NCBI GenBank assembly: GCA_019914995.1 | Contig: CM034127.1 | Span: 14,048,269 to 14,112,268, forward strand | DNA: 64,000 bases | DNA from: Acanthochlamys bracteata | Lineage: Eukaryota > Streptophyta > Magnoliopsida > Pandanales > Velloziaceae | Reading direction: 5' to 3' | Shown here: positions 2,073 to 64,000 of the stretch, in pieces | Layout of the letters: each line of letters begins with the position of its first letter | Position numbering within the stretch: the first letter of the stretch is position 1 | Translations under genes and position numbers: made by a program | Notes under the pieces: generated by a model | Told to the model about the DNA's origin: nothing | The model's database searches: none | What the model saw: only the letters and a program-made list of their open reading frames with translations

Positions 2073-5000
2073 TTATTCCTCCAAAGTGAATGATCCAACT
2101 TTTGGAGCATCAGCGTTCTTTTTCATCTGTGAACTCAAACTCTTCAACATACCATAAATTTCTGCAGTATGTGGATGAAATTTGTCTCCAGCAACAAACA
2201 CATTGGTTGTTTCTCCCACTACTATCCAACTACAACCAGGACACTTCATCACCCTTTTTTCTCTCATAGCTTGTCTCACCAATTTAGCACCAGGCAAGTC
2301 TCCTGCTGCAGCACATAAACTGGAAAGCATCACGTAAGAAGAAGAGTTCTGAGGCTGCAATTCCATAAGCTTTGCTGCTGCTAGTTTACCCCTTTCCACA
2401 TCCCCATGTATTCTACAAGCTGCTAGCAAAGTCCCCCAGATGATACTGTCAGGTTCAAAAGGTAGCTCATTTATAAGTTTCTCAGCTTCGCTAAGATAAC
2501 CACCACGGCCAAGGAGATCGATGATGCAAGCATAGTGATCTGGTCTTGGAACTATATCATCTTCACTGAACATGGAGTCAAAGATGCCACGGCCTTCAGA
2601 GATTAGGCCTGCATGACTACATGCTATGAGCACACCAAGGTATGAGACCTCATCAGGCTTCATTCCAGATATCTGCATTTTATTGAAAAGAGCAATGGAT
2701 TCTTCAGCATACCCATTCTGAGCATATCCAACAATCATACTATTCCATATAATGACATCCTTCTTAGTCTCCAACTCTTGAAACACTTTGCAAGAAGCTT
2801 GCATATCACCACATTTAGCGTACATGTCTATGAGTGCACCACCTACATTCTCATACATAGAAAAGCCAGTACGAGTTATAAGACTATGCACTACTTTACC
2901 GTGTCTGAAAGCAGCCAAATCTGCACATGCCTTCACAACACTAGAGAAAGTGGCTTCATCTGAAAGAACATTTTGACTGTGCATTTCACGAAAAGCTGCC
3001 ATTGCCTCAACACTGAGAGAATTATGCACAAGCCCTGAAATCATAGTTGTCCACTGTACCAAACTCTTACTCTCAGGAAGCTCACAAAAGAGCTTAAAAG
3101 CATCCTCAACCTCATTTAACTTCAGATACATCCCTAACAGAGAAACATCTAGGAAGCCATCATCTAAAAGAAGGCTAGACTTCAGGATATGACAATGCAA
3201 CTGCTTCCCGATACCTAATCCAAAAGGCCCTCTACAAGCAGGTAATATGCTCGCGAAGGTGAACTTAGATGGTTGAATACCTTCCATCTGCATTCCCCTG
3301 AACATTAACAGTGCTTCTTCTGGATTACTATTTTGAACATGGCCCGCAATCAAAGCATTCCTTGACACCACATTCGTTTCTGGCATCTGAAGGAAAACCT
3401 TCCTTGCAGCCTCCAGTTCACCAAGTTTAGCATAGAGATCGATTAAAGAACTCCCAACAGAAACATTTAAGTCCAAATCATACTTGATGGCCAAGCAATG
3501 TACCTGCTTCCCTTGCTCAAATGCTTGTAGATTGGAGCATGCACTGAGTACAGAAGTAAAGGACACTGCATCAGGGGCCACTTCCTCCAACCTCATCTTT
3601 CGAAACAACACAAGCGCTTCGTCTTCTCTATCATTATGTACATGCCCAACTATAATGGCATTCCAGGAAATGTTGTCTCTGTAAGACATAAGGTCGAATT
3701 GTCTTTTTGCATCATATAACTCACCAGTTTTAGCATACATGTCCAAAACCGCATTACCAACAAATAAGCTCGACTCCAGGTGATTCTTCAATATATGGGA
3801 ATGCAACTGCCTCCCCAGCAAAGGAGATTCAAATAACGAACATGCACTGAAACAACTAACAAAAGTAAAATTGTCAAGCTCAATTCCAAGCTTCTTCATT
3901 TCAATAAACAACTCAACAACTTCTTCTGGCTGGCCATTCTGCAAATAACCTCCAAGCATTGCATTCCACATAACAATATTTCTTTCCTCTGAAAGATTGA
4001 ATACCTTCCTTGAATCTTCTATCGCGTTGCATTTGGCATATAAGTTCACCAAAGCGCTCCCGACAAAAACATTTGAATCCAATCCAAGTCTCATAGCCAC
4101 TGAATGCACTTGCTGACCTCCATTTAATGCTGCTGTAGATGCAGCGGCGCTTAGTACACTTCCGAGTGTTGACCGAGTAGGTAATACACCCTTCCTTAGC
4201 ATTTCATTAAAGAAACCAAGTGCCTCAATCTCACATCCATTCTGTGAGTATCCTGATATAATACAATTCCATGCCACAACATTGGGCGACGGCATCCGCA
4301 TAAATAGGTCCCTTGCCTTCTCTACTCTACCTAGATTCACACAAGCTGTTATAGCTGTAACATACGTCACATTGTCCAGAATGCTGCCCAAACTCTGCAT
4401 TTCTTCGAATAATACCAAGGACTCTTCTGGAATACCAACTCTAGCATAGCCAGCAATCATATTAGTCCAAGAAATCGTATCAGGGATGGAAATCTGGTCA
4501 AAAACCTGCCTTGCATCTTCAATCCTGTAGCATTTAGAATACATATCAATCAAAGAACCCTCACAAAACGGATTCGAACCGTAACCCATTTTGACAACAA
4601 CACAATGAACCATCATACCATGATAAAGTTCATCCAATCGCGCGCATGCCGAGAGAACAATTGCGAGCCCAAACTGATTTGGCATAATCCCAGAACTCCT
4701 CATCCACAAGAACTCCCTGACAACACTCTCTGGAGATCCATTCCTCGCATGAAAAGCCAAAACCGAGTTCCAACCCGTCCCATTCCTCGCTTCCAAACAA
4801 CCGAATGCAACAATCTTAGCATAACCTAGATCACCAGATTTCGCATACAGATCAATAAGAGCATCACCCAGTTCCCCACCCAACTGAAACCCATGTTTCG
4901 TAATCCGTGCGTGTAAAACTCTGCAGTTTCTTGAAGACAAAGTTCCGTGAGGCAATCTACCGAACAGGTTATATGCGTTCAAACGATTCGCTTGAATCGA

Positions 5001-21450: not shown

Positions 21451-21529
21451 CATTCTAGGCGAGCGGGAAAGTATTCGTAATTGTCTCGGTCCATTTCGAC
21501 TCATGAGCTATTTGATTTTGGAGGCGTTT

Positions 21530-23470
21530 CGAATTACTTAAGAAATAAAATTTTTTTAAAATAAAAAGTATTTTTTTGAAAAATAAGTTTAATTTTTTAG
21601 TTTTAAGAAAATAATAAAAATATATACTAAAAAAATTTTGTTAGGTAAAATTTTTCTATATATTTTTAAATTTTTAAATAAAATTTTTTATATTTATAAA
21701 ATATATATTAAAAAATTTAAAATAAAAAATTTAAAAGAAGCTGAGAACGCTCAACCAAATACCCCTGCAGTATACATTCACGGGCGCCGGGAGTAAAAGA
21801 AATTACACAAACTACAGGGGTAGTGCAGTCATTTAATAACAAAAGCTAAGAGATTATTTTTTGAATTAGCTCATTCTTTCTATTCAAACAATAGCAATGA
21901 CTAAATTACCCCTTAGAAAGGTGGTTCCCAGTAACTATAGGGGGGTGCGTTTGACAATGCGCTCCAAAAATTCTTTTGTAATTTTTATTTTATATTTTTT
22001 ACTAAGATTTCTATACATAAAAATAAAATTATCGAAATAAAATCTGTTTTAAAAAAATATTTTTAGAAACACTCACAAATACTTATGAGCCATGAGAAAA
22101 TGGTAGCTGTTCGTGGCTCTACGCAACATAAGTGGACTTTAGATGTGATTGAAAGATTTTTCCAAGAGTGTGTGTTTAGAAATACTTCTAAAAAATATTT
22201 TTTTAAAATAAATAATATTTTTTTTATTTTGATAAAAATGCCATATTTTTTTAATTTTATAAAAATTGTATAAAATATTATAAAAAAATTTTTTTAATAT
22301 AAAATTAAAAATTAAAAAAAAAAGAGTTGAAAACACTTTCAAATATTACATAATTGGATTCTTTCAGAAGTACCCTCCCAAATGCAACGGTAACTACATG
22401 CATAATAGTATTAAACAACGAGTTAATAGGCTCAAACCGAGCGTTTGGCTAACTATTTTTCCAACAAAATTTTTCAAATTTTTATTTTATATTTTATAAG
22501 TATTTAGAAAATTTATTTAAAATTTTAAAAAATGTAGAAAAATTCTACTTATGAGATCTTTTTATAGATATTTTTTTTTGGAAATAAAAAAGATAAAATT
22601 TATTTCATTTTCGGAACTACCATTTGTCACGAGCCTAAAATTTTTATCTTGACTCGTGCGGCACTTAGTCATCTTCCTTTGTGGCTAAGTCAGTCTTTAC
22701 CTTAGAGCTATCAAAGATTGCTAAAAAATTTGAATGGACTAAAAGAAAATTAAGGAACACTTGAAGATAACTCTTTTGAAAAAAAGTTTTATATTATTTT
22801 GGCTTGGTACAACTCTTATTTGATTTGTTTGATGGCTCTAAATGAGGGCTCATCTTTCCTATTTATAACTCATCTACCTCTTCAACGGATGGTAGAAATT
22901 ATTTCGATCGGACGGTGAAGAATACCCTCTTCAGAAAGTTCTTACATAATATTTTCTATAAAAATCTCCACATTTTTAGAATATTTATGCCAATTATTTT
23001 TTATCTAAAGTTCTCTACCATACTCTAGATTTGGTTTATATATAAGTTAATTTTACCTAGAAAAAAAATATTTTTCTAAAATAATTTCGATAGAGAGAAA
23101 AGCCAAAGTCATACCGTGACATAAAGAGTTTGAAAACAATTTCAAATATTTACATAATTGGATTCTCTCAGAACTACCCTCTCCAATGCAACGGTAACTA
23201 CATGCATAATAGTATTAAACAACGACTTAATAGGCTCGAACTGACGCCGGGCGTTTGGCTTTTTATTTTTTCAACAGAATTTTTTAATTTTTTTTTTCAT
23301 ATTTTTTAATATATATTTTATAAGTATTTAAAAAAATTATTTAAAAATAAAAATATAAAAAAGTACACATAATGAAATTTTTTTATATATTTTTTAAAAA
23401 TAAAAATTAAAAATATTTTCAAAAAAATAAAGATACTTTTTTGTTTCAAAAAAATTCTATGTGATAACCA
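21530..23470. repeat. AT-rich repeat block with a duplicated segment
   Basis: Nearly 2 kb of A/T-dominated DNA with long poly-T and poly-A runs. A segment of about 125 bp (22323-22447: ...ATGCAACGGTAACTACATGC...GCGTTTGGCT) recurs in direct orientation at 23124-23257 with small differences, and AT-rich sequence following each copy is also similar. Several stretches have the (G)CGTTTGG plus AT-rich look of plant MITE-like repeats, but clean terminal inverted repeats were not found for them. Confidence 0.65.
22625..23121. mobile_element. Solo-LTR-like element (TGTCACG...CGTGACA)
   Basis: A 497-bp block begins TGTCACGAGCC and ends ACCGTGACA, so its ends form a perfect 7-bp inverted repeat with the TG/CA dinucleotides of LTRs. 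TGTCACG starts are common in plant LTR-retrotransposon LTRs. It sits exactly between the two copies of the duplicated segment described for 21530-23470. No 5-bp target duplication is visible (ccatt left, taaag right) and no internal retrotransposon coding region is present. It could be a solo LTR with altered flanks or a non-LTR unit with short inverted ends. Confidence 0.45.
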
Positions 23471-23586
23471 ATTCTAAATCGCAGTGCACCGGAAAAGCCC
23501 AACTTTTTGCTCAGTGAAAAAGAAAACCTCTATAAAATCTTTCACCCAAAAAAGAAAAACCTAAACCTCGTCTTTCTCGTTCAATC

Positions 23587-26500
23587 ATGGCCGCTCGGCT
23601 GTTCATTTCAGAAGCGGAGCTTCAACTCTGGCTCCGCAGCCGTAGAAGCTGCTGTAGTTGCAGCAGCAGCAGAGGTAATAATAATGCAAATATAGGAGTT
23701 CAACAAATATCTCATGCATTTCCCGTGACTCCGTTTCCGGTGGAACTCGTTTATGGTTTATTTGGTTGTTTGTTGTAGTTTTCTGTCAGAGGCAGCGGAG
23801 ATGGTTCTCATCTGAATCTTCTCAATCTTCTCCACCGAAACCGAAATCATTGAAAAAGACCGATCTTGCCAAAAAGATGGCCGAAGCCGTGAAATCATTC
23901 GTCAAAAAGTAAAAACCTTCTGTTTTATTGTTTCCTCATTTTGTTTTGATGATGTTTTTTTCTTTTCGTTGCAGACATGACGTCGTTAAGGTTATTGGTT
24001 TTAGAATTAGAATAGTTGTATCGTTTTTGCTTTAGTTCCCTATGACTAGGATATTGAATATGGTCCCCAATTAATGGAAATCGACTGATTGTTCCAAAAA
24101 ATCAGTTGGCGATGAGCTCACGATTAATTGGCCAATTCAGTTGTACCAAGTAAATTTGAAATTTTGGTTAGAATGCACATAGAGGATCTATGTGCACGTG
24201 CTTGTTGACGAAGGCAACTTTCTGTTATGTTGAATATGATGTTAATGGAAACTTTCAAAGACAAGCAGAGGGATGCGCACAGTATTACCAAATAATGGAG
24301 CAGAGTTTGATAACTTTTCCCTTATTTTCTAAATATATTGTGCAGTCTGTATGCAGAGTTACAATGTAATATTAGTTCGGTACTAAAAAAGTAGTTTTCT
24401 AATTTGCACCATCTTTTTTCAGGCATATGTTACATCATCCTGGAGTTCTCCCTGAAATAAAAGAAGTTCATGAGGAGGTAGGAGGATCGTGGTACAAATT
24501 GAGAGACATCCTTAATGAGGTTAAATCAGCTACAGAGCCTGGATACAAAAGCAATAATAACTTAAAAGAATCTTGCATTGTTAATACGGTAGCTTTAGAA
24601 GGAATAGACATAAAAGATAATCCAGATGGAGGTGAAATTGATGACGCCGAACATCGACTTGGACCAGTAATGGAGCTTCCAAGTTTGGAAGAATCGCAGA
24701 TGATAGGTGACAAAGATCGTACAGTTCTGGCTGCAGCAGAAGTTCCAGAAGAAGCTGTTAAGCACGAAATTATAACTACTGAGGACAGGGTTGCTTCTGA
24801 AGGCAACGATGCAGCTCCAGAATCCCCTTTCTCAGATTTTAAAAGGTATGCAGATGATTCGTACCATGGAAAAATCCCAATAGGAGGAAAATGCATGCAG
24901 GAAATGCACGACCCCATGTTAGAAGGTCAAAATTCTGAAAGAAAGGTCATAAGCTTGGTCGAGTTTTTTAGACGCAATATAGGCAAGGTGGAGCCAAAAG
25001 CAAAACCCACTTTTTCAGACTATGCGTGTCAAAAAGAGGACAGGCAATCAAACAATTTGGATAGTTCTAAAAGAAAAAATGGTCTTTATCATCATAGCAT
25101 AAGCTATGAGCAACAGCGCAAACAGAGTGTACCGTTGAAGCTGAATAATACTCAAGGAGAGATACCTGAAGGGAGATCAAATGTAAATTTATTGCTGGAT
25201 AGACTTCTTGAACTCGCAGAAGACAAAAGAAAGAGTCCGCCCAATGTAAATGGTCAAAGTGGTACAACAAACAAGGTCAATCAAGAAACTAAACCAGGAA
25301 CTACTTGGAACTCTTTACAGGAGGCACTAAAGTTTCCTAATGTGAAATGTAAGGATACATCAGATGGTCTGTTTACACATATAAGGGCTAAAGACTTTAA
25401 TACAGAGACAGAAAGGGGGACAACTGTGAAAGTAAACATCTCTAATTTTTTGGCAGGAACCACTGAAGTCCATGCAAACATAAGAATTGGTGGGAGCAGT
25501 ACAAAGAAGCTGCAGTTGGCTAAAGAGGAACAAAAAGAAGAATTGCCAAGTTTGTCTGATACCCAGTATGTGAGCGACTGTAGTGATTCAGATATCGCAG
25601 CATTTGACTATCCAAAGCCAGATGCAAGTACTCAATCAACTGGAAGATTAAACGTGAATGCATCTTCTACATTTGAAGAAAGAGATAGGGGTGAAAATAG
25701 ACTTTTGGTGAAATTCTTGCCAAAGATGGTCACAGCGAAAGATATAGCTCTCCAATTTGGCAATTGTGAACCTATTTCTGAAGTTCATGTAGTTCCTTCC
25801 AGAAGAGAGAACAAATTCAGTTATGCTTATGTTTACTTCAAGGTAGATTCATCTTCACATAATCATTTTTTTTGATATAGTTTACCAGAAAGAAAAACAC
25901 TCATTTTCACATTCTCAGGTTTGACAAACATAAATGCCTTTAGAAACTATCTTTTGTTGTGATTCTGCTACTGTTGTATGTTTGTGTGCTTGTGTTTGTT
26001 TGTGGTTGGTGGGTGTGTTTTGTGTACTTTATTATGATGGTTTCACTTTATACCATGGACTATTGGATGGAGATAGTGGGTAGAACATCGAAGTATGGTT
26101 ATCATTTAATGTCTTCAAAACACAGAAATGACTCGTGTGATCTTTTTAATCCCTCCAGCAATAGAAGATACTACTAGAGAAGCATTCATTTCCAAAGATA
26201 TATTATTCTCTTATACTGTTTTTACTTTTGGATTTTATAGATGTAGATATAAATCATTTTGCTGTACAGGTCTTTCTTCCTGATTGCGATGCTGTAAAAT
26301 AGTATATACCCTTATTAAAATGCACACATTATGCATGACTAGAACAGAATATTGAAAGTCTGAAAGTTCTGTGGCAGACAGAAGAAGGCTTGCAGAAAGC
26401 TCTAGGTAAACCTAGTGTAACTGTGGGAGGTTTAGATGTTATCATGGAGCCGTCTAGTGCGAAGCTCCATTTTACACGGTCTCCTGTGGAGCCAGGCGGC

Positions 26501-48061: not shown

Positions 48062-48800
48062 ATAATTAAAAATAAAAACAACGAGAATTCTACTGTGAAT
48101 ATTTCATGATGATCGTTCAAAACATTCATTTGTTCAAACCACTGCGATCATATGAGGAGAGGAAAGAAAACAAAATCTTTGAATGCTTGGGGGGATTGAA
48201 TTAATCATGATAGACTGCCTGCTGCTATGTTGGTGTGTTTTAGGGTTTTCACATTTGAAGTAATTAATGTTTTTTAAGTGATTGTGGGTTTGAGATATTG
48301 TTCACTTGTAGTTATAAGTAAGCACTAGTGTTTGTGTGGTTCAAAACAATTCTTTTTAATTTGTTTGAGATAGAGTGTTTGTAATTTGTGAAACAACAAA
48401 GAACCACAAAGGAAGGAGAATACATCTCTCTTTTGTTTTACTAATCTGTCCATATATTCTCACACGCATGAAATTTTAGTCTTGTATCTTTTTCCTATAC
48501 ACTCAGTAGAGTTTTTTAAGTGGCGTTATTTTTGAAAGAAAATTTTTCTAAAATAAAATTTTAAAAAAATAAAATATATTTTTTTAAAAAATAATAAAAG
48601 TAAGTAATAAAAAATTCTATTATGTAATTTTTTTATATTTTAAAACTTCAAATAAATTCTTTAAATTATCGTAAAAAATTTATTAAGACTTAAAAAAAAT
48701 TGATAAATACTTTTTTTGAAATGGAAAGCTAAATCGGCCCCTAAAAGTTTTACAACTTTTTAAACAGCAAATCAAGGTTCACCGGACAGTTAAAATCGGT
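48062..48800. other. RIC 3' flank and AT-rich block
   Basis: Probable 3' UTR to about 48450, then an AT-rich repeat-like block at 48530-48720 similar in style to the AT-rich blocks elsewhere in the window. No gene. Confidence 0.5.
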
Positions 48801-51890: not shown

Positions 51891-54800
51891 ATGGTCGGAG
51901 TCCAACGCAGTTGACGTCGGCTGGTTTTGTTCGCCGTCTTGATCTGTTCATTTCTCTCCTCTGTCCCCCCCGTGGTACGCCCTATCTCAGACGCTCACCG
52001 ATCTGCTGCGATCGAGCTGTTGCAGTCAACAGATGGATCGTTTAGAAGGTAATAGAATCTTAGATCTTAAACAAATTCAGTACTCCGTTTACTCTCTTTT
52101 GAATAATCCATTTTTTATTTTTGTTATGGAGTGCTGGACTGCTTTGATGTTTGGTGCCTGAGTGAAGAAAAATCAACAATGTTAATGATGGAACACTTTA
52201 GTTGAACTTGTCATATAGCATTATCATGGACAGTGTCTCTCATCGACTTCAACTGAACTAAACTGATTGGTTTCTACACTTTCTTCCATCTCTATTTTTC
52301 TGAAGCTATTCTGCTTTGTTTGGATCTTGTCACTTTTGTGTGGTAGTCGAGTGAGAATCAATCTTTTTTCTAGTCTAGTATACTGCATATCATATTTATT
52401 TTGGAGTGCAACTGGGTTGGCATGGAAAACTTTCGGGAAGTCCCAGAAACTTTTATTAAAAAACTAAAACTTACAAGAGAGCACAGAGAGCAGAGAGTGC
52501 CACTATTCGTTCAAGTTGTGATTGCATTTATAACTGTGTTTATTTTCTTTGCTGTTTTTACTTATATTGTGTTGGCATTTCTACTTTTTGCTACGATGTT
52601 CTTTCTTTCTGTCTGGGATTGATCAAATCTTCTAGGAGTTTTTTTCTTAACATCAATGCTTTGTTTATCACAAACTCTCTCGTGTTTCACATGTACTTAA
52701 CTCTAGGATGACAGTCATGTGAGGTGATTTAATCTGTTACTTTATGGCAGTTTTGTCAGTTATCATCAAATTCTATGACCATGTAACTTTTCAAGCACTA
52801 GGTATATGTTTATGCGAGGTTGGTTAGTTTTCTGAAGAGGATATTAGGTGTTCTTCCTTTTGGACGTTGCGTTCTTTTCCTGTTTGTCTACTTACTACTT
52901 TTCTTTTCTTTAATAGTTTAGTATTAGATGGCATCAGAGAGTCATTGGTAAGCCTTTAGCATAGTGGCTTCTTTTTTTTGGCAATTATTTGGACGCCAGC
53001 TTTGAGAGTGACCAGAACACCTCTTTCTTACAGTTCATAATTTCGTTTCCAATAAATTGAGTTGTAGAACCATGCGAATATTTCGCTGACTTCTTCTTTT
53101 TCTTTTATATATCCTCTGCAGCTTGGAAGAAACATATTAGGCATTGAAAACATTCCAAATTTTAGGATTGGGGGAGCCTGCTGATATCAGCAATAAGGTT
53201 TGCATTTCAGTTGGTGAGACTCTTGCGTTGTCATCCTCCAGTTTGAAGGATCTGTCAGTGCACTCAGAGTTGACAGTGTTTTGGAATGCCAGATAGATAA
53301 AACTGCAGTAAAGGTCGTTCTAACATCGATTGATTGCCCTAGGGAGCTGAGTAAAAAAAGTGCCAGTAATATGGTTTACTTTGCTTTTGTAGAATGTGTC
53401 TTCAAGAGTGCAGTCCTTTTTAAAGGATTTGAATTCATTGGAAGACCTCTACTATTGCATAGGAAGTTGAAAGCTCGTCAAGGTTAGGGCTATCTGCAAT
53501 GATCCTATTTTGCTTTGCATCAATTTCAGGCATCTGTATAAAGTTGCCCCAATGCAAATCAATCTTTCATGTGCAGGATAAAGGGACAGTTTTAGATCTG
53601 TCAGACCTAATGGCTTATTCCAGACTGTGAAGGTAGTTATTTTTGTGCTTCAGTTTAGTTTTATTTTCATGTGTTTAGTTTTAGAAGCCAATATAAGCAC
53701 TTATTTTCTTGCAATTTTCTGTCAGGCTCTCAGCCAAAGTGATGGAAGATGGCGTTTTGATTCCAACAATACCGAATCCAGTACTTATGGGGCAGGTAGA
53801 TAACCTAAAAGTGCTTAAATTTTGACAAATGCTTTTCAATCTTTTGCCATTGGTATAAGATGGACTGTTCATGTTAGTTTATGAAAAGAAAAAAAATATC
53901 CATTAGGTCAGATTAGTATTATATTTTCAGAAAGCAGCGGAAAACCATATTATTCAGTTGGTGGGAAATTATTCAGGCTTTTCTATCTATAAAATACTTC
54001 TTGGTAACCTTGTCTAGCTCACTAGCATCTAGTTGCTTACTAACTCTAGAAGACAGTTATGCCCTTGTGAGCAAGTCCCATAGACTTGGATGAGTACTTT
54101 GCCTAGCAGGTTTGTCTAGGTAGGAAAGTGTATTATTACTTTTGAAGAGGTTAGGATTGCCCGTCTGTCGTGCTAGCATAAACTGCTGGTTTTGTATTGA
54201 GTTTCAGTTATCGTTAACTTGTTAACTAGAACTCTTGCAGGGTTAGCACTTGAAACGCTCGCGGGTATTATATCGTTGTCGGATTAGATGTGGATTGGTC
54301 CATGGTAAGGAGACTGGACGATGAGCATCCTGTTATCAATGCTAACCTAGTTTCAATTGCTTACATTGATTCTAGTAAGTCATGTTTTAATTGTGTAATG
54401 GTGTTGGCTCCTCAGATATCTAAGGTTTTAGTCAATCACAGTCATAAAAGAAGTTAATAAGTTAGGTATTTTTACACTCCTGATGCTTAGACTATTACAA
54501 TAAGCATATAGAGCTAGTTGATAGATTCGAATGTTGATCTCAAGCTCCAAGTATGCCTGTGAAAGGTTCTCATATTGGAAGTTTATGCTGAAAGTAATAA
54601 GAGACTGTTAATTTCTTTGGATTTGCATTTATGTGTCCGGTGCTGATTAATGTTGCGTTTCGATTATGTAACATGTGACACCTACAAATGGCAGTACAAT
54701 CACGAGTCGTTATGGCTTCATCGTTTCAAGAATATTATTTTGTCAAGTTAGTTTGGTTCAGAAATCAAGGAAAGATGTTGCAGAATATGCTGTACATATC

Positions 54801-55591
54801 CTGCATTGTGTGTTTTGCAAATGTTGACATGATGCAATTTCATTGTGAAGTTGTATCTGGCCTTATTTGCAGTTTAAGCTTTTTGTCATTTTAAATTTCT
54901 TTCTTCACATATATACAATCAGTTCTTTCAGCTTCGTAGATGTGTTGGACTTTTGACAATGACTCTGTCTTTTTATTAGATCGAAGTTGTGAAAAATGAC
55001 ATCGTGAAGCTGTTCAATAGCATCTCGAGTTATGGTAATCTCTCTAATCCGTCTGATTTTCTTGTCAGATTTGTGAGTTATTGATTGCTTCCCTGCTGGA
55101 ATAAGTTGTCGTCCTCTTTTTCTTTATTGAAGTAGTATATTGAAGTATGTAGGCTTCACAAAGAAAAGAATAACGCAAGCATGTACATGCAGACACATGT
55201 TCATGCATACATGTCTAGTTTTGAAATGTTCATCATATAGTGTGCATGATGCCGCTCATGTTCTTATAATTTTGTTTGATCTGATGCAGATGACGGGATC
55301 TTGTATATTGACGAGAAATATGTTAATCCTAGTGACTATAAAGGCCCTCTAGCAACAACATCTTCCGTACTACAGGGTGTGTCTGCATTTGCCAATGTTG
55401 CTTCTGGGCAGATTAATGTGAGTTGGATATAGTTAATTCAGGTTTGTTTTCCATTTATTATGCTTATTATCCACCAGCTGTTTCTAAATGGTTAGTTTGG
55501 AACTATATTTTGCAGATTCCTGGTGATAAAATCTTAGGTTTGGCAAAGTTTCTTTTGAGTGTTGGGTTCCTGGTAGTGCAAAAGATTTGTA

Positions 55592-56192
55592 CAACCAAAT
55601 TGCGGAACTTGGATCTAGATAGCCCGGCGAAGGGAGGACAGCCGCAGAAAAGTCAGAATAAAATTATACAGAGGAAGAACGGAAATAAGATCAGAGATAT
55701 TCTTCTAAAGATTTAGGTTTATTCACAAGTGGTATGAGGAGTGATCTCAACCAAGGGAGAAGCCCCATATTTATAGTATTTACAAGGGATCGCAGTGGCG
55801 TATCCTATAAGTCTCATTTTGTGCTAGTGGCCGACTTATGCATGTGGGCATAGTACAATGATGAGACACCACTAACTAATGACAAGACTCTACTAATCTA
55901 CGTGGCTTACGATACATAGTGGCCAGGTACAATAATGCAAGAGAATTTTATCACTATACTATTACAATATGACTACAAGACAGAACGTCTCGTCAAGCCA
56001 CGTCAGTGGTCATGTGCTTATGTCTTTTTACTGCTGTTTGTGATAAGAAGAAATCTCTCATCAGTTTATTGATGTGATGTTTAGGACCCACCATGCTTCG
56101 CGCGCAAGACTCTGATGGACCTAATCGTCAATAGTGAGTGCTGCCAATGTATCCGAATTCAATGAATCGTCTTCATCGTTCATTGCTTCGTT
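55592..56192 (-). promoter_or_regulatory. Viral intergenic/promoter region, left copy
   Basis: Reverse complement of 58744-59345, with point differences and small indels. In the viral sense it holds a stop-terminated ORF end (NEAMNDEDDSLNSDTLAALT), TGACG near 55998 (as-1-like), an intact TATA-type CTATAAATA near 55770-55780, and AATAAA near 55727. It ends at GGTTGGGCTATCTAGATCC against the host exon. This matches the layout of caulimovirid pregenomic-RNA promoters. Confidence 0.65.
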
Positions 56193-56200
56193 TTTCCTTT

Positions 56201-56305
56201 AATTGGATCATCTATCTTGAAGCTTTTGTACTTTGACTATCTGCCCTTTGTCGCTCAAGTAGTTTTATCGTTTTTTCTTCAATTGGATCATCTATCTTGA
56301 AGCTT
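56201..56305. repeat. ~80-bp tandem duplication inside left arm
   Basis: AATTGGATCATCTATCTTGA begins at about 56201 and again at about 56281, an 80-base period. It lies right at the internal deletion junction of the left arm. Confidence 0.75.
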
Positions 56306-56652
56306 AAACGATGGATGTCGTGTAGAGCCTCTGGAGTGAGTTCTACGTTTCCCCATCTGTGGAAAGATAGAGATGAAACGGACCTTATTATCTCCTGTTG
56401 TGGTGGTACATTTGTGGAGATGGATGCCTCGTCAGGATTGGTATGCTTGATCACAGACGAAATTGTATTTCCTGAAGCTGTGAAATATTCAATTGGCATT
56501 AGAGGTTTTGGCTTCAGGAATAACTGCATGTCATTATCCAGCTTTAGATGTATTATGTCAACTAATCTTGGTTGATTAGTTTTACCTACGATTAGTTTGA
56601 CGCACTCTTTTGGAGTTACTGACTTGAATGTAAATGTATCATTCAAAGCCAT
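56212..56652 (-). pseudogene. Viral polyprotein segment, left arm
   Basis: Open for 146 residues beginning MALNDTFTFKSVTPKECVKL. The right arm carries a diverged homologue at 61584-61844. It lies downstream of the zinc-knuckle region in the viral sense. I cannot assign it to movement, coat or another domain. Its 3' end (KASR, stop) includes the start of the local tandem duplication, so the C-terminus is altered. Confidence 0.5.
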
Positions 56653-56830
56653 ACAGTGTTCCCATTGTATTCCAAGTATTTTTTAGCCTGTTAAGAGCTC
56701 TATCCCTTGGAGTTTTTCGATTTTGTTTTTGTTTAAAAGACTGATGGAAGATAAGTCTTCGTCACCTTTTAAATCAATATTCTCCTGCATCCGTTCGAAA
56801 ACGTATGTATGCCTATTGAAGAATCTTGAT

Positions 56831-57343
56831 CTAAAAGAGGGGGGTTTTGTAAATTTCCCTCTTCTTAGAATGAGGAATTGCCTTTTTGAGTCTTTCAAGA
56901 TCTTCATCGGTGACTACAAATTGCTCACCCATGCTATCTTGAATATTCGGATGTGTTGTTTCTTCTGGTTCGGAAGAGAATTTGAACATGTATAGCCTAT
57001 ACTCGCGGAATATATCTCCTTCTTCTTTAGATATATTAGCGGGAGTAGAGCTAGAAGCATCGGCCCTTAGTGGAGAACGAGTTCGAGTCGCGGCCCTTTG
57101 TGGGGTGCTGCTAGTCGAAACTCTTTGTGGAGAGCGCATGAATACTCTTTGTGGAGAGGAAGTTTTAATGTCTTCGAGTTCTTCCTTTACTATCGGAAGG
57201 TCTTCGTATTTATGTATTACAAGGAGTCTTATTGGATCTCCTTGCTCAATCTTATAGTGCCTGTCATCAAAATTAGTACTTTTCATTAAGATCAGTACAT
57301 TGGTCTTGACTACTGGGTAGATAATACCTTGTGTTATAGACAT
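56831..57343 (-). pseudogene. Viral polyprotein segment with dUTPase-like motif, left arm
   Basis: Open for 170 residues. It includes VKTNVLILMKSTNFDDRHYK, then IEQGDPIRLLVIHKYEDLPI. Hydrophobic strands followed by GDxIxxLVIH resemble the GDRIAQLVIH strand of dUTPases. It then runs into Ser/Thr/Arg repeats built on SPQR (RSPQRVSTSS..TPQRA). The right-arm counterpart (61000-61260) is frameshifted. The dUTPase suggestion is structural resemblance only. Confidence 0.4.
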
Positions 57344-57375
57344 ACTATTTTTTGTATGTTTAGATATATTGTGGA

Positions 57376-57900
57376 TTATTCAAAATATCCGAATAAGATT
57401 TGGATAATTAGATCTAAGTATATCTCAGTTGTTCGGTACCTTTTCAATCTAGTATTTCTTCCAACATATATTGTATAGCCTGGGGAGTTTGCTTTTTTCT
57501 TTTTCGGGAGTATTGAGTGTTTGCTCAATTGTGCGACTTTCATCACATTCATTGTATGATTTATGGTGAACATATTCATCCTTAAGTTTTCTACTGAATC
57601 ATCGTCGGATGTATCCGAACAAATAGATTCAACCTCATATTCTGAGGAGTCATTGTTGTTTGAGATATCTTTCACGGTTCCGATGTGGATACCGTATTGA
57701 CCGATATAACTACGTATTATGCTTCTGATCTGAGTGGAACATTCTCTTGCGAAGTGTCCTTTCTGATCACCTTTGAAGCATTTGCAACCAGATTTAAATT
57801 TCTCTTTATCTAGGAATTTTCTATCAGAGAATTTTTTCTCCGTTTGGATTTTCCTTTTCTCTTATGGTTTCCAATTTTTCCAAGTAATATGAAATTTAGG
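57376..57900 (-). pseudogene. Zinc-knuckle (coat/Gag-type) region, left arm
   Basis: Upstream of the frame at 57675-57376, the sequence continues open through a CKCFK..DQKGHFAREC segment at about 57740-57790, followed by an acidic Ser-rich stretch ESICSDTSDDDS, as seen around the zinc finger of caulimovirid coat proteins. The codon expected to give the second zinc-binding Cys is GGT (Gly) at 57769-57771, so the finger is broken. Confidence 0.6.
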
Positions 57901-58723
57901 GTCCTGCTTTTTGAGAGCTTTATCCCTTATTTCATATTCTGTAGGAAAGCCAAAGTCTTGGTTTGTATTGACTGTATACTTGCTACAGCAATTGTACTCA
58001 AGTTTTGAATGTTTGACTTGTCTTTGAGCTTTAGCTTGCACGGAAACTTTTTCTATTGTTTACATACAAGCCTTCTTTAAGAGACCTGTAGAATGATCAA
58101 TTGTTTGAGCTGTAGCCCGAAGCTGATCATAAGTTGTTTGTGTCAGATTATTCCATAGATCAGAGAATTTTTACTGATCCAGAAATTCTTTTGTTCTGTT
58201 GTTCCAAGTCGAAAAATTAGACCTATGTATGCAGAAGTAAATTCTTCTAACATACAAATGTCACATAATTTCATTTGGAATAGTCTTTTTTCATGATTTT
58301 TTTTCTTCTGTAGCAGTTTCTCTAATAAAATCTGCTATAAGATATTCATTAATCGGGATTGTGCCTCAATTTTATTTGGGATACTTCTGATTTCAGCAGC
58401 AGTCTGTGGACTGTTATTGTCGAGACCTTCTAGTCATGCTAGTGTACGTCTCTTTCCCAGAAATTTGTTGCGAAGCAAATGTATTCACTTGTTGTCAAAG
58501 TTGCTGGAAGAACCCATATTGTTCTAAATATTCGTTGAACCTCTAGCGTATTACCCTACTTCAGAAGTACCAAGCACAGCCATGGTTCGTTTTTTACTCC
58601 GTGACGTAGTAGCTCAAGATCAAAAAAGGTGCTATTGAACTGTAACTTTCTCAACTTACCATTTTCTTACAATACTATAAGCAAATAACGAAAATACTTT
58701 CTGTAACTAAGCATCTTCAAAAA

Positions 58724-58852
58724 ATGGAAGACCAGCTTGCTAACGAAGCAATGAACGATGCAGACGATTCATTAGATTCGGATACATTGGCAGCACTCAC
58801 TATTGACGACTTGGTCATCAAAGTCTTGCACGCGAAGCATAGTGGGACCTAA
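58724..58852 (+). other. Short ORF at the palindrome junction (end of viral downstream ORF)
   Basis: A 42-codon frame from an ATG at 58724, reading MEDQLANEAMNDADDSLDSD and on to a stop at 58852. The left arm carries the same C-terminal text (NEAMNDEDDSLNSDTLAALT), joined to different upstream sequence. It is therefore the 3' tail of a viral ORF just before the intergenic region. It sits exactly where the two arms meet. Confidence 0.5.
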
Positions 58853-59345
58853 ACATCACATCAATGGACTGCTGAGAGATTCTTTCTTATCACAAACAGT
58901 AGTAAAAAGACATAAGCACATGACCAGACGTTCTGTATGGTAGCGTGGTTTGACTAGACGTTCTGTCTTATAGCCATTATTGTAATAGTATAGTGATAAA
59001 ATTTTTTAAATTATTGTACCTGGTCACTATGTATCGGGGGCCACGTAGGTTAGTGGAGTCTTGTTATTAGTTAGTAGTGTCTCATCATTGTACTATGCTC
59101 ACATGCATATGTCGGTCACTAGTACAAGATGAGGCTTATGGGATATGCCACTGCGGTCCCTTGTAAATACTGTAAGTATGGGGTTTCCTCCCTTGGTTGA
59201 GGTCACCCCTCATACCACTTGTGAATAAATTTAAAGTTTTAGAAGAATATCTCTGATCTTATCTCCGTTCTTCCTCTATGTAATTTTCTTCCGACCCTTC
59301 TGCGTTTCTTCTCCCTCCGGTTGGGTTATCTAGATCCAAATTCCG
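58853..59345 (+). promoter_or_regulatory. Viral intergenic/promoter region, right copy
   Basis: Direct counterpart of 55592-56100 in inverse orientation. The TATA position here reads CTGTAAGTA and the as-1-like TGACG is lost, so this copy looks weaker than the left one. AATAAA is kept near 59224. It runs straight into the primer-binding site. Confidence 0.6.
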
Positions 59346-59350
59346 CAATT

Positions 59351-59363
59351 TGGTATCAGAGCC
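59351..59363 (+). other. tRNA-iMet primer-binding site
   Basis: TGGTATCAGAGCC is complementary to the 3' end of plant initiator tRNA-Met, the reverse-transcription primer of Caulimoviridae and many LTR retrotransposons. It is the only full copy in the insertion; the left promoter copy stops just short of it. Confidence 0.9.
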
Positions 59364-60171
59364 GTTGATCGTCTATCCGTGCCTTGTGTCTTATTTGTGC
59401 ATCTCACGTCGTCTATCAAAGATTTGGAGCTTGTCGAGTAAAAGTTGGAGGTTCGCTCTGATAGAACTGGTATGGCTTCCTTCACAATATCGTTTGGTTT
59501 TCCCAACATCATACTAGTCTTAGTTGCAGGAAGTGTTTTCGTTATTTGCTTATAGTATTGTAAGAAAATGGTAAGTTGAGAAACTTACAGTTCAATAGCA
59601 CCTTGTTCGATCTTGAGCTACTACGTCACGGAGTAGGAAATGAACCATGGTTGTGCTTGGTACTTCTGAAGTAGGAGTATAGGCTAGGTGTTCAACGAAT
59701 ATTTGGGACAATATGGGTTCTTCCAGCAACTTTGACAACAAGTGAATACATTCGCTTCACGACAAGTTTCTGGGAAGGAGACGCACTAGCATAGCTAGAA
59801 GGTCTCGACAATAACAGTCCATAGACTGCTGCTGAAATCGGGAGTATCTCAAATAAAACTGAAACATTATCCCGATTAATGAATATCTTATAGTAAATTT
59901 TATTGGAGAAACTGCTATAGAAGGGAAAAAATCATGAAAAAAGGCTGTTCTAAATGAAATTATGTGACATTTGTATGTTAGAAGAATTTACTTCTGCATA
60001 CATAGGTTTAATTTTTCGACTTGGAACAATATAACAAAAGAATTTCTGGAACAGTAAAAATTCTCTGATCCATGAAATAATTTGACATAAACAACTTATG
60101 ATCAGCTTCGGGCTACACCTCAAACAATTGATCATTCTACAGGTCTTTTAAAAAAGACTTGTATTTAAACA

Positions 60172-60999
60172 ATGGAGAAAGTTTGCGTGCAAGCAAAGGC
60201 TCAAAGACAAGTCAAATATTCAAAACTTGAGTACAATTGCTGTAGCAAATATACAGTCAATACAAACCAAGACTTTGGCTGTCCTACAGAATATGAAATA
60301 AGGGATAAAGCTCTCAAAAAGCAGAACCCTAAATTTCGTATTATTCGGAGAAATTGGAAACCATAAGAGAAAAGAAAAATCCAAACGGAGAAAAAATTCT
60401 CTGATAGAAAATTTTTAGATAAAAAGAAATTTAAATCTGGTTGCAAATGCTTCAAACGTGATCAAAAAGGACACTTCGCAAGAGAATGTCCCACTCAGAT
60501 CAGAAGCATAATACGTAGTGATATCGATCAATACGGTATCCACATTGGAACCGTGAAAGATATCTTAAACAACAATGACTCCTCAGAATATGAGGTTGAA
60601 TCAATTTGTTCGGATACATCCGACGATGATTCAGTAGAAAACTTAAGGATGAATATGTTCACCATAAATCATACAATGAATGTGGTGAAAGTCATACAAT
60701 TGAGCAAACACTCAATACTCCCGAAAAAGGAGAAAGCAAACTCCCCAGGCTATACATTATATGTCGGGAGAAATACTAGATTGAAAAAGTACCCAACAAC
60801 TGAGATATATTTGGATCTAATCATCCAAATCCTATTCGGATATTTTGAGATAATCCACAATATATCCAAACATACAAAAAATAGTATGTTTATAATACAG
60901 GATATTATCTACCCAGTAGTCAAGACTAATGTACTGATCTTAATGAAAAGTACGAACTTGATGACAGGCACTATGAGATTGAGCAAGGAGACCCAATAG
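60172..60999 (+). pseudogene. Zinc-knuckle (coat/Gag-type) region, right arm
   Basis: Mirrors the left-arm region. An open stretch at 60172-60366 is followed by CKCFK..DQKGHFAREC at 60442-60490, and the frame 60553-60999 with the ESICSDTSDDDS acidic stretch and the hydrophobic block up to VKTNVLILMKS. The second zinc-ligand position is CGT (Arg) at 60457-60459. A frame change after NVLILMKST and others downstream break the polyprotein. Confidence 0.6.
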
Positions 61000-61583
61000 G
61001 ACTAGGACTCCTTGTAATACATAAATACGAGGATCTTCCGATAATAATAAAGGAAGAACTCGAAGACATTAAAACTTGCTCTCCACAACGAGTATTCATG
61101 CGCTCTCCACAGAGAGTTTTGACTAGCAGCACCCCCACAAAGGGCTGCGACTCGAACTGGTTCTCTACTAAGGGCCGATGCTTCTAGCTCTACTCCCGCT
61201 AATATATCTAAAGAAGAAGGAGATATATTCCGTGAGTATAGGCTATATATGTTCAAATTCTCTTCCGAACCAGAAGAAACAACACATCCGAGTATTTAAG
61301 ATAGCATGGGTGAATAATTTGTAGTCACCGATGAAGATCTTGAAAGACTCAAAAAGGCAATTTCTCATTCTGGCAAGAGGGAAATTTACAAAACCCCCTT
61401 CTTAGATCAAAATTCTTCAATAGGCATACATACGTTTTCGAACGGATGCAGGGGAATATTGAATTAAAAGGTGACGAAGATTTATCTTCCATCAGTCTTT
61501 TAAATAAAAACAAAATCGAAAACCTCCAAGTGATAGAGCTCTTAACAGGCTAAAAAATATTTGGAATACAATGGGAACACTAT

Positions 61584-61844
61584 ATGGCTTTGAATGATAA
61601 ATCTATATTCAAGTCAGTAACTCCAAAAGAGTGCGTCAAACTATTTGAAGTTGGAATAGATAAAACTATTCAACCAAAATTAGTTGACATAAGACACCTA
61701 AAGCTGGATAATGACATGCAATTATTTCTGAAGATTCTGAAGCCAAAACCTCTAATGCCAATTGAATATTTCACAAAGCGTAGAAATACAATTTCGCTTG
61801 ATGATCAAATACTAATCAAAAGGATAGTCAATTTAGGCATTTAG
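61584..61844 (+). pseudogene. Viral polyprotein segment, right arm
   Basis: An 86-codon frame, MALNDKSIFKSVTPKECVKL to NLGI, homologous to the left-arm 146-codon frame but shortened by indels. Sequence homology between the arms continues to about 61905, after which host-like DNA resumes ahead of the ribophorin exon at about 62060. Confidence 0.5.
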
Positions 61845-64000
61845 CACACATGAATGATACCACCATAACAAGGGGTAAGGTCCGTTTATCTCTATCTTTC
61901 CAGAAATTTTAAATCTTTTTATTTATACTAATCTATCCAACCTCAAGCTTAAAAACTCCTTTGAAGGATAGATGATCATTTTGACATCCGCCAGGGTGCT
62001 TAATGATAATTGCTATAGCTGAAAGGATCAAGCTTGCTTTTGGTCGTCCAGACTATGACCCAAGTGGATGTTGGCAAATACATCTTGGATTTTGAGGTAA
62101 CCTTGTCTTCCTATTTGCTCATTTTTCTGCTGCAGCTTAAATTAATATATTTGAGGTGACCCCAATATTTGCAGGTTAAGCTACATGACCCTGAACATGC
62201 AAGCACATATGCAATAGGAGGTAAAACAAGCGAATTAGTTTTTCTGACTGGTGAAATAAAGGTTGAGAAGCCAGAAATTGCTGTTTTGGACAGTGAGCTT
62301 GGGAATGTTCAGTCAACCAAGAAGTATGTTCTTTTTTCTCTCTTACATGTCTGTCAATCAGTTTGCAAATGTGATCCATAAAGTAATGGGTATTTGAAGC
62401 TTCTTTTAGAAGCATATACTTTATAATAGCTTCCCTAAATATATATATTGCTCCAAGTTTTCCATCTTGTAAAGAGGATTCTGCAGAAGCTAGCCACATA
62501 TAACTTGTATTGTTGTTTTTGCTTGTGGAATTTAGCATTTTTCAATGCTTTACGATTATGGTGAACTCTTTAACTTTTCTTTCCTAAAAGACCTTGGTTT
62601 GCCTTGCAACAAGGCTCACATAAGTGCTGATTAATGTATATTAGTGAGTGCATTGATCTTAATAACTGGATATGAATCACTGTCATTGTTCCTTAGAAGA
62701 AGCAGGAAGGCGATACCTATTTGTGCTCGCAAAAGAAGGGTGCCGTTGCTTTCCACATGTTGACTTGTAGTTTATAATATGCAGATTAGATTTATCAAAA
62801 GACAATAAAGTTTCGCTTGCAGCAAACCATTTACAAAAACTGTATTTGTCTTTCCAGTTGACCACACCTCTGGGACACTCCTTCAAGCCACATCAGGTTT
62901 GCTCTCAATTTCCATGAGAATTCTCTGTGATGATAATTCCTTGATTTTTGACAAAGATGAATGGCCACAGGTTTTCCTTAAATTGAGCCATGAAACAAAA
63001 GTTGATCACATCTTCATACTGGAGAGTTCTGCTAGGCAATTTAAGATTCGACTAGTTAAGTTCTTTTGATAGTTGCATTAGTTACAAGTAATAGATGTGT
63101 AAATGAGATTGATATGTTTGTAGAATAGTGTATAATTGCATTCTCTTATCTCAGGATTTTCTTCGACTGGTGGACAAATTTTATTTATCTCTCTGGAAGA
63201 TATGATATTGAGCTTACAGTGGGAGATGCTGTAATGGTAAAATTCTTCTACAGATCGTCTCTGTTCATCGTTGTTGCTCTTGGACCTTTGCATTTACTCC
63301 ATGGTGATAATCCAGGATAAGTAGTTCATGAGAGCACTTGGCCATGTAGATCTAGACTTGCCAGATCCACCAGAGAAAGCATCCCTCCCTCCTGCATTGC
63401 CACTTGATCCTTCTCAAGATTTGGGCCCAAAAAAGAGATATTCACATCTTTCGGGCACCAGAAAGTAGGCCCCGAAGGAGCTATCACTTGGTTTTCTTGG
63501 ACTAGTACTGGCTCCCCCTTCTTGGATTTTTAATTGGGGTAAGGCTCTTTCTATGTCATTTTTTATGTGCTGCTATTTTTTCTTGCTAACTTATCTAAAT
63601 ATCATTTTGCAGTTAATCAGGTTGAGAGTGAGCTTTAAGAATTTCCTTCTGCTCACATTCGCCTTACTCTTCCATGGTGGCATTGGAGCGGTTATTGTAA
63701 TTTACTTGTTCTTCTAATTGAAGGTTGGTATCGTTGGACACAGATCACAAATTTTATTTTGCTAAACCGCACGTGATCAAAAAGGTGCACATGCATCTAA
63801 TCCTTTCTCTTGGAACCTAAATTTCTACAATTGAACCTATTAACCAACATTGAAGGCTCTTGCATTCTTGGGTGTCTTCCTAGTGTCCGTTGGTCATAGG
63901 ACATTGTCCTACCTTACATCAACATCAAGAAAGCTGAAGTCTTCTTAAGACAATTGACCCATTAAGTTATGTGCTTCCCATACAGTTATTGTTTGTGAGA

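Follow-up and report, generated by a model that had tools for sequence, protein, structure and literature searches.

An inverted caulimovirid insert, probably captured from one deleted viral DNA, in a ribophorin II homeolog of Acanthochlamys bracteata

How did two inverted copies of viral DNA come to lie within a gene of Acanthochlamys bracteata, and would RNA read from them feed antiviral silencing? A sequence-only reading of the window (the whole stretch of 64,000 nucleotides analysed here) had described positions 55592..61905 as one inverted repeat, in which two copies of the same caulimovirid-like coding region face each other around an axis near 59,115 with a loop of about 0.8 kb. The matching arms are confirmed: blastn aligns arm B (56360-58711, minus strand) with arm D (59519-61902, plus strand) at 90.6 per cent identity over 2397 columns (E-value printed as 0.0), and ungapped blocks of this repeat were also recovered in a repeat search of the window. 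Such length and identity are far beyond chance, and the computed loop (807 nt) and axis ([58711 + 59519]/2 = 59115) agree with the earlier values. The main pair is thus real, but the same limits also include a second inverted pair, formed by segments A (55594-56192, minus strand) and C (58742-59354, plus strand) with 86.5 per cent identity over 615 columns. The order along the insert is A-B-C-D, with A matching C and B matching D; because the two pairs cross, they cannot coexist in one nested hairpin. The copies are indeed inverted versions of one region, but they lie head to head with the viral sense outward in both, and they are rearranged and deleted pieces that hold no whole coding region.

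Palindromes are a known class of assembly artefact, and the repeat might have been created by a chimeric fold-back read. We exclude this origin, to which we assign next to no probability, because the arms have diverged (K2P 0.083), with 182 of 2343 aligned sites differing and 50 of 2393 columns gapped; the insert also has unlike ends.

The limits of the insert are set by host homology to the C1 homeolog of the ribophorin II gene (RPN2), which stops at 55600 and restarts at 62059. On the left, RPN2 exon 8 and its acceptor (55514..55600, plus strand) are truncated by the insert; on the right, the gene resumes with the remainder of exon 11 and continues to exon 18 (62059..63950, plus strand). The insert took the place of 1.22 kb of this RPN2 copy, which lacks positions 3419-4638 of the sequence L043. 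Whereas 18 exons of the C1 homeolog are open and encode four ribophorin II domains, the window copy carries one 1-base frameshift upstream of the cut and more frameshifts in exons 11-18. Judged from its sequence, this copy, one of two homeologs, is now a pseudogene. A weak HERV-K_env_2 match at 53218-53487, below the cut-off, was taken as chance because that interval spans the first two RPN2 exons with their intervening intron.

At the left junction, host and viral homology overlap by 7 nt (ACCAAAT, 55594..55600), and the viral side stops at the border of the primer binding site for tRNA-Met. Segment A, identified by blastn and motifs, is the left copy of the viral sequence that precedes the primer site (the promoter and poly(A) region by motif), and it retains the TATA motif TATAAATA (55768-55775, minus strand) and an AATAAA (55718-55723, minus strand). 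It is followed by a stretch of the viral frame that continues after the movement-protein region (56193..56359, minus strand), and a 38-nt direct duplication (56188-56225 and 56268-56305) is present in this copy. Arm B contains the leader end, the CCHC-containing (capsid) region, the edges of the movement-protein region, and both of the deletion junctions described below; arm D has the same content. At the head-to-head junction (58712..58741), about 9 nt of filler precede the upstream edge of segment C, which lies within the loop and is, by blastn and motifs, the right copy of the region of segment A. Here the TATA motif has decayed to TGTAAGTA (59171-59178, plus strand) and a viral AATAAA stands at 59224-59229 (plus strand). 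The tRNA-Met primer binding site TGGTATCAGAGCC (59351..59363, plus strand) is followed by viral leader present in the right copy only, which makes up the remainder of the loop (59355..59518, plus strand). The right junction is occupied by 156 nt of filler (61903..62058) with no second copy, as a search of this genome gave only the window itself.

Both arms have the same two deletion junctions. In arm D (plus strand), the first lies near 59693-59695, where about 1.1 kb is missing with CAA microhomology, and the second near 61520, where about 0.26 kb is missing with microhomology around CTCC. Spliced viral RNA was rejected as the cause of these deletions, since their borders are not GT-AG and microhomology is present. 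Probes for the two junctions listed 25 and 28 genome matches in a search that scores only the best candidates, and among these only the two arms in the window span the junctions; we therefore derive both arms from a single deleted progenitor. Had the same virus instead inserted twice, independently, at one place, arms as different as these might be expected: a comparison of 13 sequences over the capsid block places the arms nearest each other (K2P 0.070), but only by a little, as arm D is 0.081 from L034 and 0.089 from L035, its nearest other copies. The two junctions common to both arms and found in no other listed match speak against independent insertions, which we consider improbable. What the locus contains is two head-to-head inverted pieces of one deleted viral DNA in an RPN2 homeolog, with the target host DNA lost. 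At a substitution rate of 7e-9 per site per year, the divergence of 0.083 between the arms corresponds to about 6 million years, which is an upper limit if the arms differed at entry.

The insert is, as its motifs and relatives indicate, a rearranged and deleted piece of an endogenous caulimovirid, and the caulimovirid origin proposed earlier is supported by the primer site and by the movement-protein domain PF01107 in dispersed relatives. Of 19 fetched viral stretches, 10 have a site resembling TGGTATCAGAGCC with comparable spacing from the TATA motif. The family is dispersed in the same 195.5-Mb plant genome, with 24 matches to a leader-region probe and 23 to a zinc-finger probe (the window's own included), and inverted viral repeats of at least 400 bp occur in four of 17 other sampled places of the genome. 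A profile search located PF01107 just downstream in several relatives (67.8 bits at 3997-4608 of the relative stretch L035; the best score in the genome is 77 bits); the ORF pieces of the window itself did not match the profile. This is because the second deletion removes the core of the domain: of the nucleotides matching PF01107, 260 of 330 in L035 and 239 of 369 at C7 fall within the deleted part. The CCHC zinc knuckle scores 14.2 and 15.5 bits in the window pieces, below the cut-off of 20.8, and 24.6 bits, above it, in the relative L034. Neither reverse transcriptase nor RNase H was detected in the eight ORF pieces scanned from the insert and its flanks. An RVT_1 match (86.7 bits) lies at L035:1708-2040, next to the relative and on the opposite strand, and an IMG/VR scan with the RT piece gave no match. 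In the relatives, the zinc finger precedes the movement domain, an order that presumably recalls Cavemovirus/Solendovirus. It differs from florendovirus ORF1, in which the MP comes first and is followed by a CP with a zinc finger (Geering et al. 2014; PMC4241990). As far as bipartite endogenous florendoviruses are described there, they resemble the present family in that its dispersed copies seem to be of two kinds of piece sharing the primer-site region (PMC4241990).

The 0.6-kb segment that stops just before a tRNA-Met primer site is LTR-like, and in L024, L027, and L031 a further copy of it, oriented alike, lies 2.3-2.6 kb past the leader module, so that segments A and C could be read as inverted LTR fragments of a retrotransposon. 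We rejected this as the main reading and consider it very improbable: the family carries the PF01107 movement-protein domain, segments A and C are mutually inverted rather than direct, and in place of a short target-site duplication there is the 1.22-kb host deletion.

A rearranged endogenous caulimovirid insertion that arose by capture of deleted viral DNA in break repair is, in our assessment, very likely. Repair of a chromosome break would have taken up the deleted viral DNA as filler, either as two molecules or as one inverted duplicate, and one viral end would have joined the host through the 7-nt microhomology at the edge of the primer site. The RPN2 copy may already have been dead at insertion, or may have died later. 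Taken as a whole, the locus is probably best explained as a captured inverted caulimovirid insert in an RPN2 homeolog that would be foldable if read through.

The capacity for a long double-stranded hairpin is upheld by structure prediction. The MFE fold of the insert has a predicted 2255 arm-arm pairs in a duplex of about 2.35 kb (-4138 kcal/mol), and segments A and C are not paired together in it; the alignment of the arms holds 39 perfect runs of at least 21 nt (longest, 81). The earlier proposal of folding by a transcript from either side holds for RNA that crosses both arms, but not for the viral promoters, to judge from their motifs and positions: the loop promoter, its TATA decayed, is directed into a single arm, and the promoter of the left segment, its TATA kept, is directed out of the insert. 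Because neither reads both arms, the two could enter one RNA only if transcription starting in the host gene or elsewhere outside the insert ran through them. A polymerase reading the plus strand from the RPN2 side across the loop would make an RNA that folds into the predicted duplex, and Dicer-like enzymes could cut this into siRNAs against the virus family and its genomic copies. Plus-strand read-through would, however, meet the AATAAA in the loop and would tend to stop before the second arm. We put the chance that hairpin siRNAs may be produced in some tissue at slightly below even.

The differences between the arms are strand-biased. Arms B and D differ by 136 transitions, of which 89 keep a G.U pair in the plus-strand RNA and 47 break pairing (two-sided p 0.0004), and the same test on A and C gives 35:19 (p 0.04). 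Polarised changes on the plus strand show an unexpected excess of C>T over G>A in the two arms together (55:25, p 0.001), which would fit either plus-strand transcription or selection for pairing. Under selection, the arms of a functional hairpin siRNA locus would stay pairable and its plus-strand RNA would feed antiviral silencing, for which tomato and soybean provide precedent, as presented in PMC10377300. The pairing asymmetry, however, amounts to this same C>T excess, so that selection is not needed; A>G and T>C changes between the arms are even (7:8); and the bias has the same direction in A and C (polarised, 29:17, p 0.10), which do not pair together in the predicted fold. No transition bias is seen in six further inverted pairs of the family (p 0.27-0.92). 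Divergence and indels in the arms indicate no tight constraint, and they have drifted (K2P 0.083, 50 gap columns) as a neutral locus would. Selective maintenance of a functional hairpin appears unlikely on these data, as does a selected antiviral role for the locus, and we doubt strongly that the G.U-keeping bias is a record of selection on a working, heritable antiviral silencing locus whose past use could be read from its mutations alone. Were that true and of general validity, drift of a G.U-tolerant kind between the arms of inverted viral copies would mark active siRNA loci, with RNA data unneeded.

The bias may instead be a footprint of transcription, left by deamination of the non-template strand as host polymerase read through in the RPN2 direction, and the same transcription would also yield hairpin RNA. 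Arm B (29:10, p 0.003), arm D (26:15, p 0.12), and segment C (19:8, p 0.05) all have the C>T excess, but segment A, nearest to the host exon, is even (10:9), and a stricter rule (private changes against a unanimous rest) leaves only 32:17 in the arms (p 0.04). Cytosine transitions dominate the private changes of the arms, where they make up 57 of 85; the figure for five other copies is 142 of 306 (p 0.0009), a comparison confounded by the virus-time changes that are included among the private changes of those copies. Single copies are skewed in opposite ways at similar size (L025, 12:22; L035, 14:6; neither significant) or are near even (L036, L038, and L039), and the RPN2 flanks have no clear bias (window T/C1 C, 111; window A/C1 G, 105), although old divergence dilutes this test. 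We regard a transcription footprint as a tentative reading, plausible but somewhat short of an even chance.

Small-RNA immunity from caulimovirid inverted repeats is, as a general idea, already published for tomato, where inverted-repeat endogenous caulimovirids described as 'transcriptionally competent siRNA areas' are reported to give rise to 22-nt siRNAs, with silencing of matching transcripts (Valli et al. 2023, as described in PMC10377300). The tomato loci, as described there, are likewise rearranged and able to give a hairpin transcript, but siRNAs and silencing are reported for them, whereas the present locus is a candidate hairpin source and lies within a host pseudogene. In soybean, long inverted repeats derived from caulimovirids and TEs are reported to be cut by DCL2 into siRNAs (Jia et al. 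2020, cited in PMC10377300); these share with our locus a long inverted repeat of caulimovirid DNA and differ in the siRNAs reported. Rearranged banana streak virus insertions (eBSV) can release virus, according to PMC10377300, whereas the insert in the window is deleted and decayed. Within what these sources describe, the locus is a further example of an already described kind. Endogenous viruses in inverted copies have been proposed as one origin of heritable, RNA-based resistance to viruses in plants, and the locus adds an example in which both arms come from one deleted viral DNA and lie within an exon of a housekeeping gene that is duplicated. A count of strand bias among the transitions that separate two arms gives a simple sequence-based test for transcription or selection, which may be applied to every such locus.

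The insert comprises four viral segments: A (55594–56192, minus strand), B (56360–58711, minus strand), C (58742–59354, plus strand) and D (59519–61902, plus strand). In a self-comparison of the window, B pairs in inverted orientation with D (90.6 per cent over 2397 columns) and A with C (86.5 per cent over 615 columns), so that, given the order A-B-C-D, the two inverted pairs cross. The long arms, B and D, have their axis at 59115 and a loop of 807 nt, bearing out the inverted repeat around ~59,115 with a ~0.8-kb loop proposed in the sequence-only reading. In the viral sense, the left copy runs B then A and the right copy C, leader, D, the copies lying head to head; they may derive from a single DNA, circular or terminally repeated, of which each is a permuted piece. 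The left copy also carries a 38-nt direct duplication (56188–56225 and 56268–56305), bordering its join with segment A. Elsewhere in the window, small dispersed repeats in both orientations (21527–21736, 22321–22607, 23123–23478 and 48526–48699) are 72–78 per cent alike, and three of the four lie in or near its most AT-rich 2-kb step (22001–24000, GC 0.284).

A tRNA-Met primer site (59351–59363) lies at the end of segment C, with an AATAAA at 127 nt and a TATA position at 180 nt upstream. The TATA position reads TATAAATA in segment A and a decayed TGTAAGTA in segment C; exact TATAAATA occurs there in 11 of the 19 clearly homologous places counted. Searches of G000, the 195.5-Mb, 557-contig assembly in which the window occupies C2:14048269–14112268, returned at least 24 matches to a leader-region probe and at least 23 to a zinc-finger probe, the window's own included. 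Several of these relatives have the movement-protein domain PF01107 directly downstream of the zinc-finger stretch; the domain scores 67.8 bits in the relative L035 (3997–4608). The CCHC knuckle of another relative, L034, scores 24.6 bits, above the Pfam cut-off of 20.8, and those of the window pieces fall under it (14.2 and 15.5 bits). PF01107 has no match in the window's ORF pieces because the second of the two deletions described below removes the domain core. RVT_1 lies beside L035 (1708–2040, opposite strand) and was not found in the insert's own ORF pieces. The primer site and the movement-protein domain of the relatives place the insert in an endogenous caulimovirid family and uphold the caulimovirid-like origin first proposed. 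The family seems to comprise two kinds of pieces with a common primer-site region. One (L038, L039, L040 and L041) has the zinc finger and movement domain; in the other (L024, L027 and L031), the A/C-type (Y) region repeats 2.3–2.6 kb past the leader, with the zinc-finger arm unmatched in between. The two kinds recall the bipartite florendoviruses.

Relative to the other copies, B and D share two deletions, one of ~1.1 kb following the leader and one of ~0.26 kb within the movement region; neither has GT-AG borders, and both show short microhomology. The first junction was spanned in two of the 25 genome matches listed for its probe and the second in two of the 28 listed, in each case the two window arms. 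In the capsid block (13 sequences), the arms are mutually closest (0.070), followed by L034 at 0.081, measured over a shorter stretch, and L035 at 0.089. Because the junctions were spanned only by the arms among these matches and the arms are closest to each other, a single deleted viral DNA was most likely the source of both.

The insert lies in the ribophorin II gene (RPN2), which forms a homeolog pair on C1 (G000:C1:14494000–14503900; L043) and C2 (window 52566–63967). The plus strand matches L043 at 75 per cent over 52566–55600, 77 per cent over 62059–62704 and 84 per cent over 62749–63967. In the stretch read, which excludes the first exon or exons, the C1 copy has 18 exons that, hand-marked and joined, are open through the final stop and encode all four ribophorin II domains (158, 135, 88 and 62 bits). 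The insert stands in place of L043 3419–4638, a 1.22-kb interval that runs from within exon 8 to within exon 11 and includes exons 9 and 10 entirely. Single-base gaps interrupt exons 1, 3, 5, 8, 11, 15, 16, 17 and 18 of the window copy, exon 17 having an 11-base gap as well; AG and GT sites are kept at the 13 fully aligned internal exons. It is a pseudogene, and the insert, which is therefore located in the lost copy of the pair, may precede or follow gene death. At the left junction, host and viral sequences overlap by 7 nt at the primer-site edge; at the right is 156 nt of filler, for which a genome search returned the window alone. These features are consistent with the picture expected from viral DNA captured in break repair, a hypothesis described in PMC10377300.

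The minimum-energy fold of 55594–61905 has 2255 B-D pairs (–4138 kcal/mol), and the arms share 39 perfect runs of at least 21 nt, the longest of 81. The proposal that a transcript from either side would fold is thus sustained for the predicted fold, but not for the transcript: a viral AATAAA (59224–59229, plus strand) lies within the loop, and the promoter motifs do not cover both arms. Because the loop motif is directed into D alone and the A motif leftward out of the insert, only host or outside read-through could supply the predicted hairpin RNA.

B and D differ by 136 transitions and 46 transversions. Of the transitions, 89 would preserve pairing as G.U in plus-strand RNA and 47 would disrupt it (P = 0.0004); for segments A and C, the corresponding split is 35:19 (P = 0.04). 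Polarised with five other copies over a 1.8-kb capsid block, plus-strand changes in the arms comprise 55 C>T versus 25 G>A (P = 0.001), divided 29:10 in B (P = 0.003) and 26:15 in D (P = 0.12). Base composition is ruled out as the cause because the two arms are significantly different (P = 0.0008). For segments A and C, the polarised C>T to G>A count is 29:17 (P = 0.10; segment A alone, 10:9), and the leader has four C>T and two G>A. Under a stricter rule (private versus unanimous rest), the arms retain 32:17 (P = 0.04); L025 (12:22) and L035 (14:6), two of five copies taken singly, have non-significant skews of similar size, and the other three are near even. No bias was found in a further six of the family's inverted pairs (P = 0.27–0.92), and none was visible in the RPN2 flanks (111:105 summed, a comparison of limited power). 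Of the private changes, cytosine transitions account for 57/85 in the arms versus 142/306 in five other copies (P = 0.0009), a weak comparison since the latter include virus-time evolution. Two viral lineages would be expected to differ symmetrically; the bias, if real, therefore arose after integration. The most parsimonious explanation is read-through transcription in the direction of RPN2. Maintenance of arm pairing by selection is an unlikely alternative; it would be expected to bias A>G/T>C changes as well, and the arms show no such bias (7:8, small numbers).

We fetched 19 viral stretches, representing 17 places, from the lists of the leader-region and zinc-finger probes, several listed places being left out; inverted matches outside family matches or shorter than 400 bp were not counted. 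Inverted viral repeats of at least 400 bp occur in four of the 17: L025 (787 bp, 95 per cent; 417 bp), L039 (1400 bp), L040 (434 bp) and L041 (2163–4151 and 7716–9597 of C19:3361000–3370900; 1250 bp at 78 per cent and 711 bp at 72 per cent, more diverged than the window's repeat). One further place, L032 with L033, has inverted pairs of 235–262 bp. Inverted capture is therefore a recurrent outcome for this viral family.

According to PMC10377300, inverted-repeat endogenous caulimovirids of tomato yield DCL2-made 22-nt siRNAs that silence matching RNA, and soybean has similar loci; 22-nt endogenous-pararetrovirus siRNAs of tomato hybrids are likewise linked to DCL2 (PMC9124383). The siRNAs are reported for those systems, whereas the A. 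bracteata locus, known here from its sequence, joins them by structure. It is a new addition to the structural kind of inverted-repeat endogenous caulimovirids and a candidate member of their siRNA-producing class.
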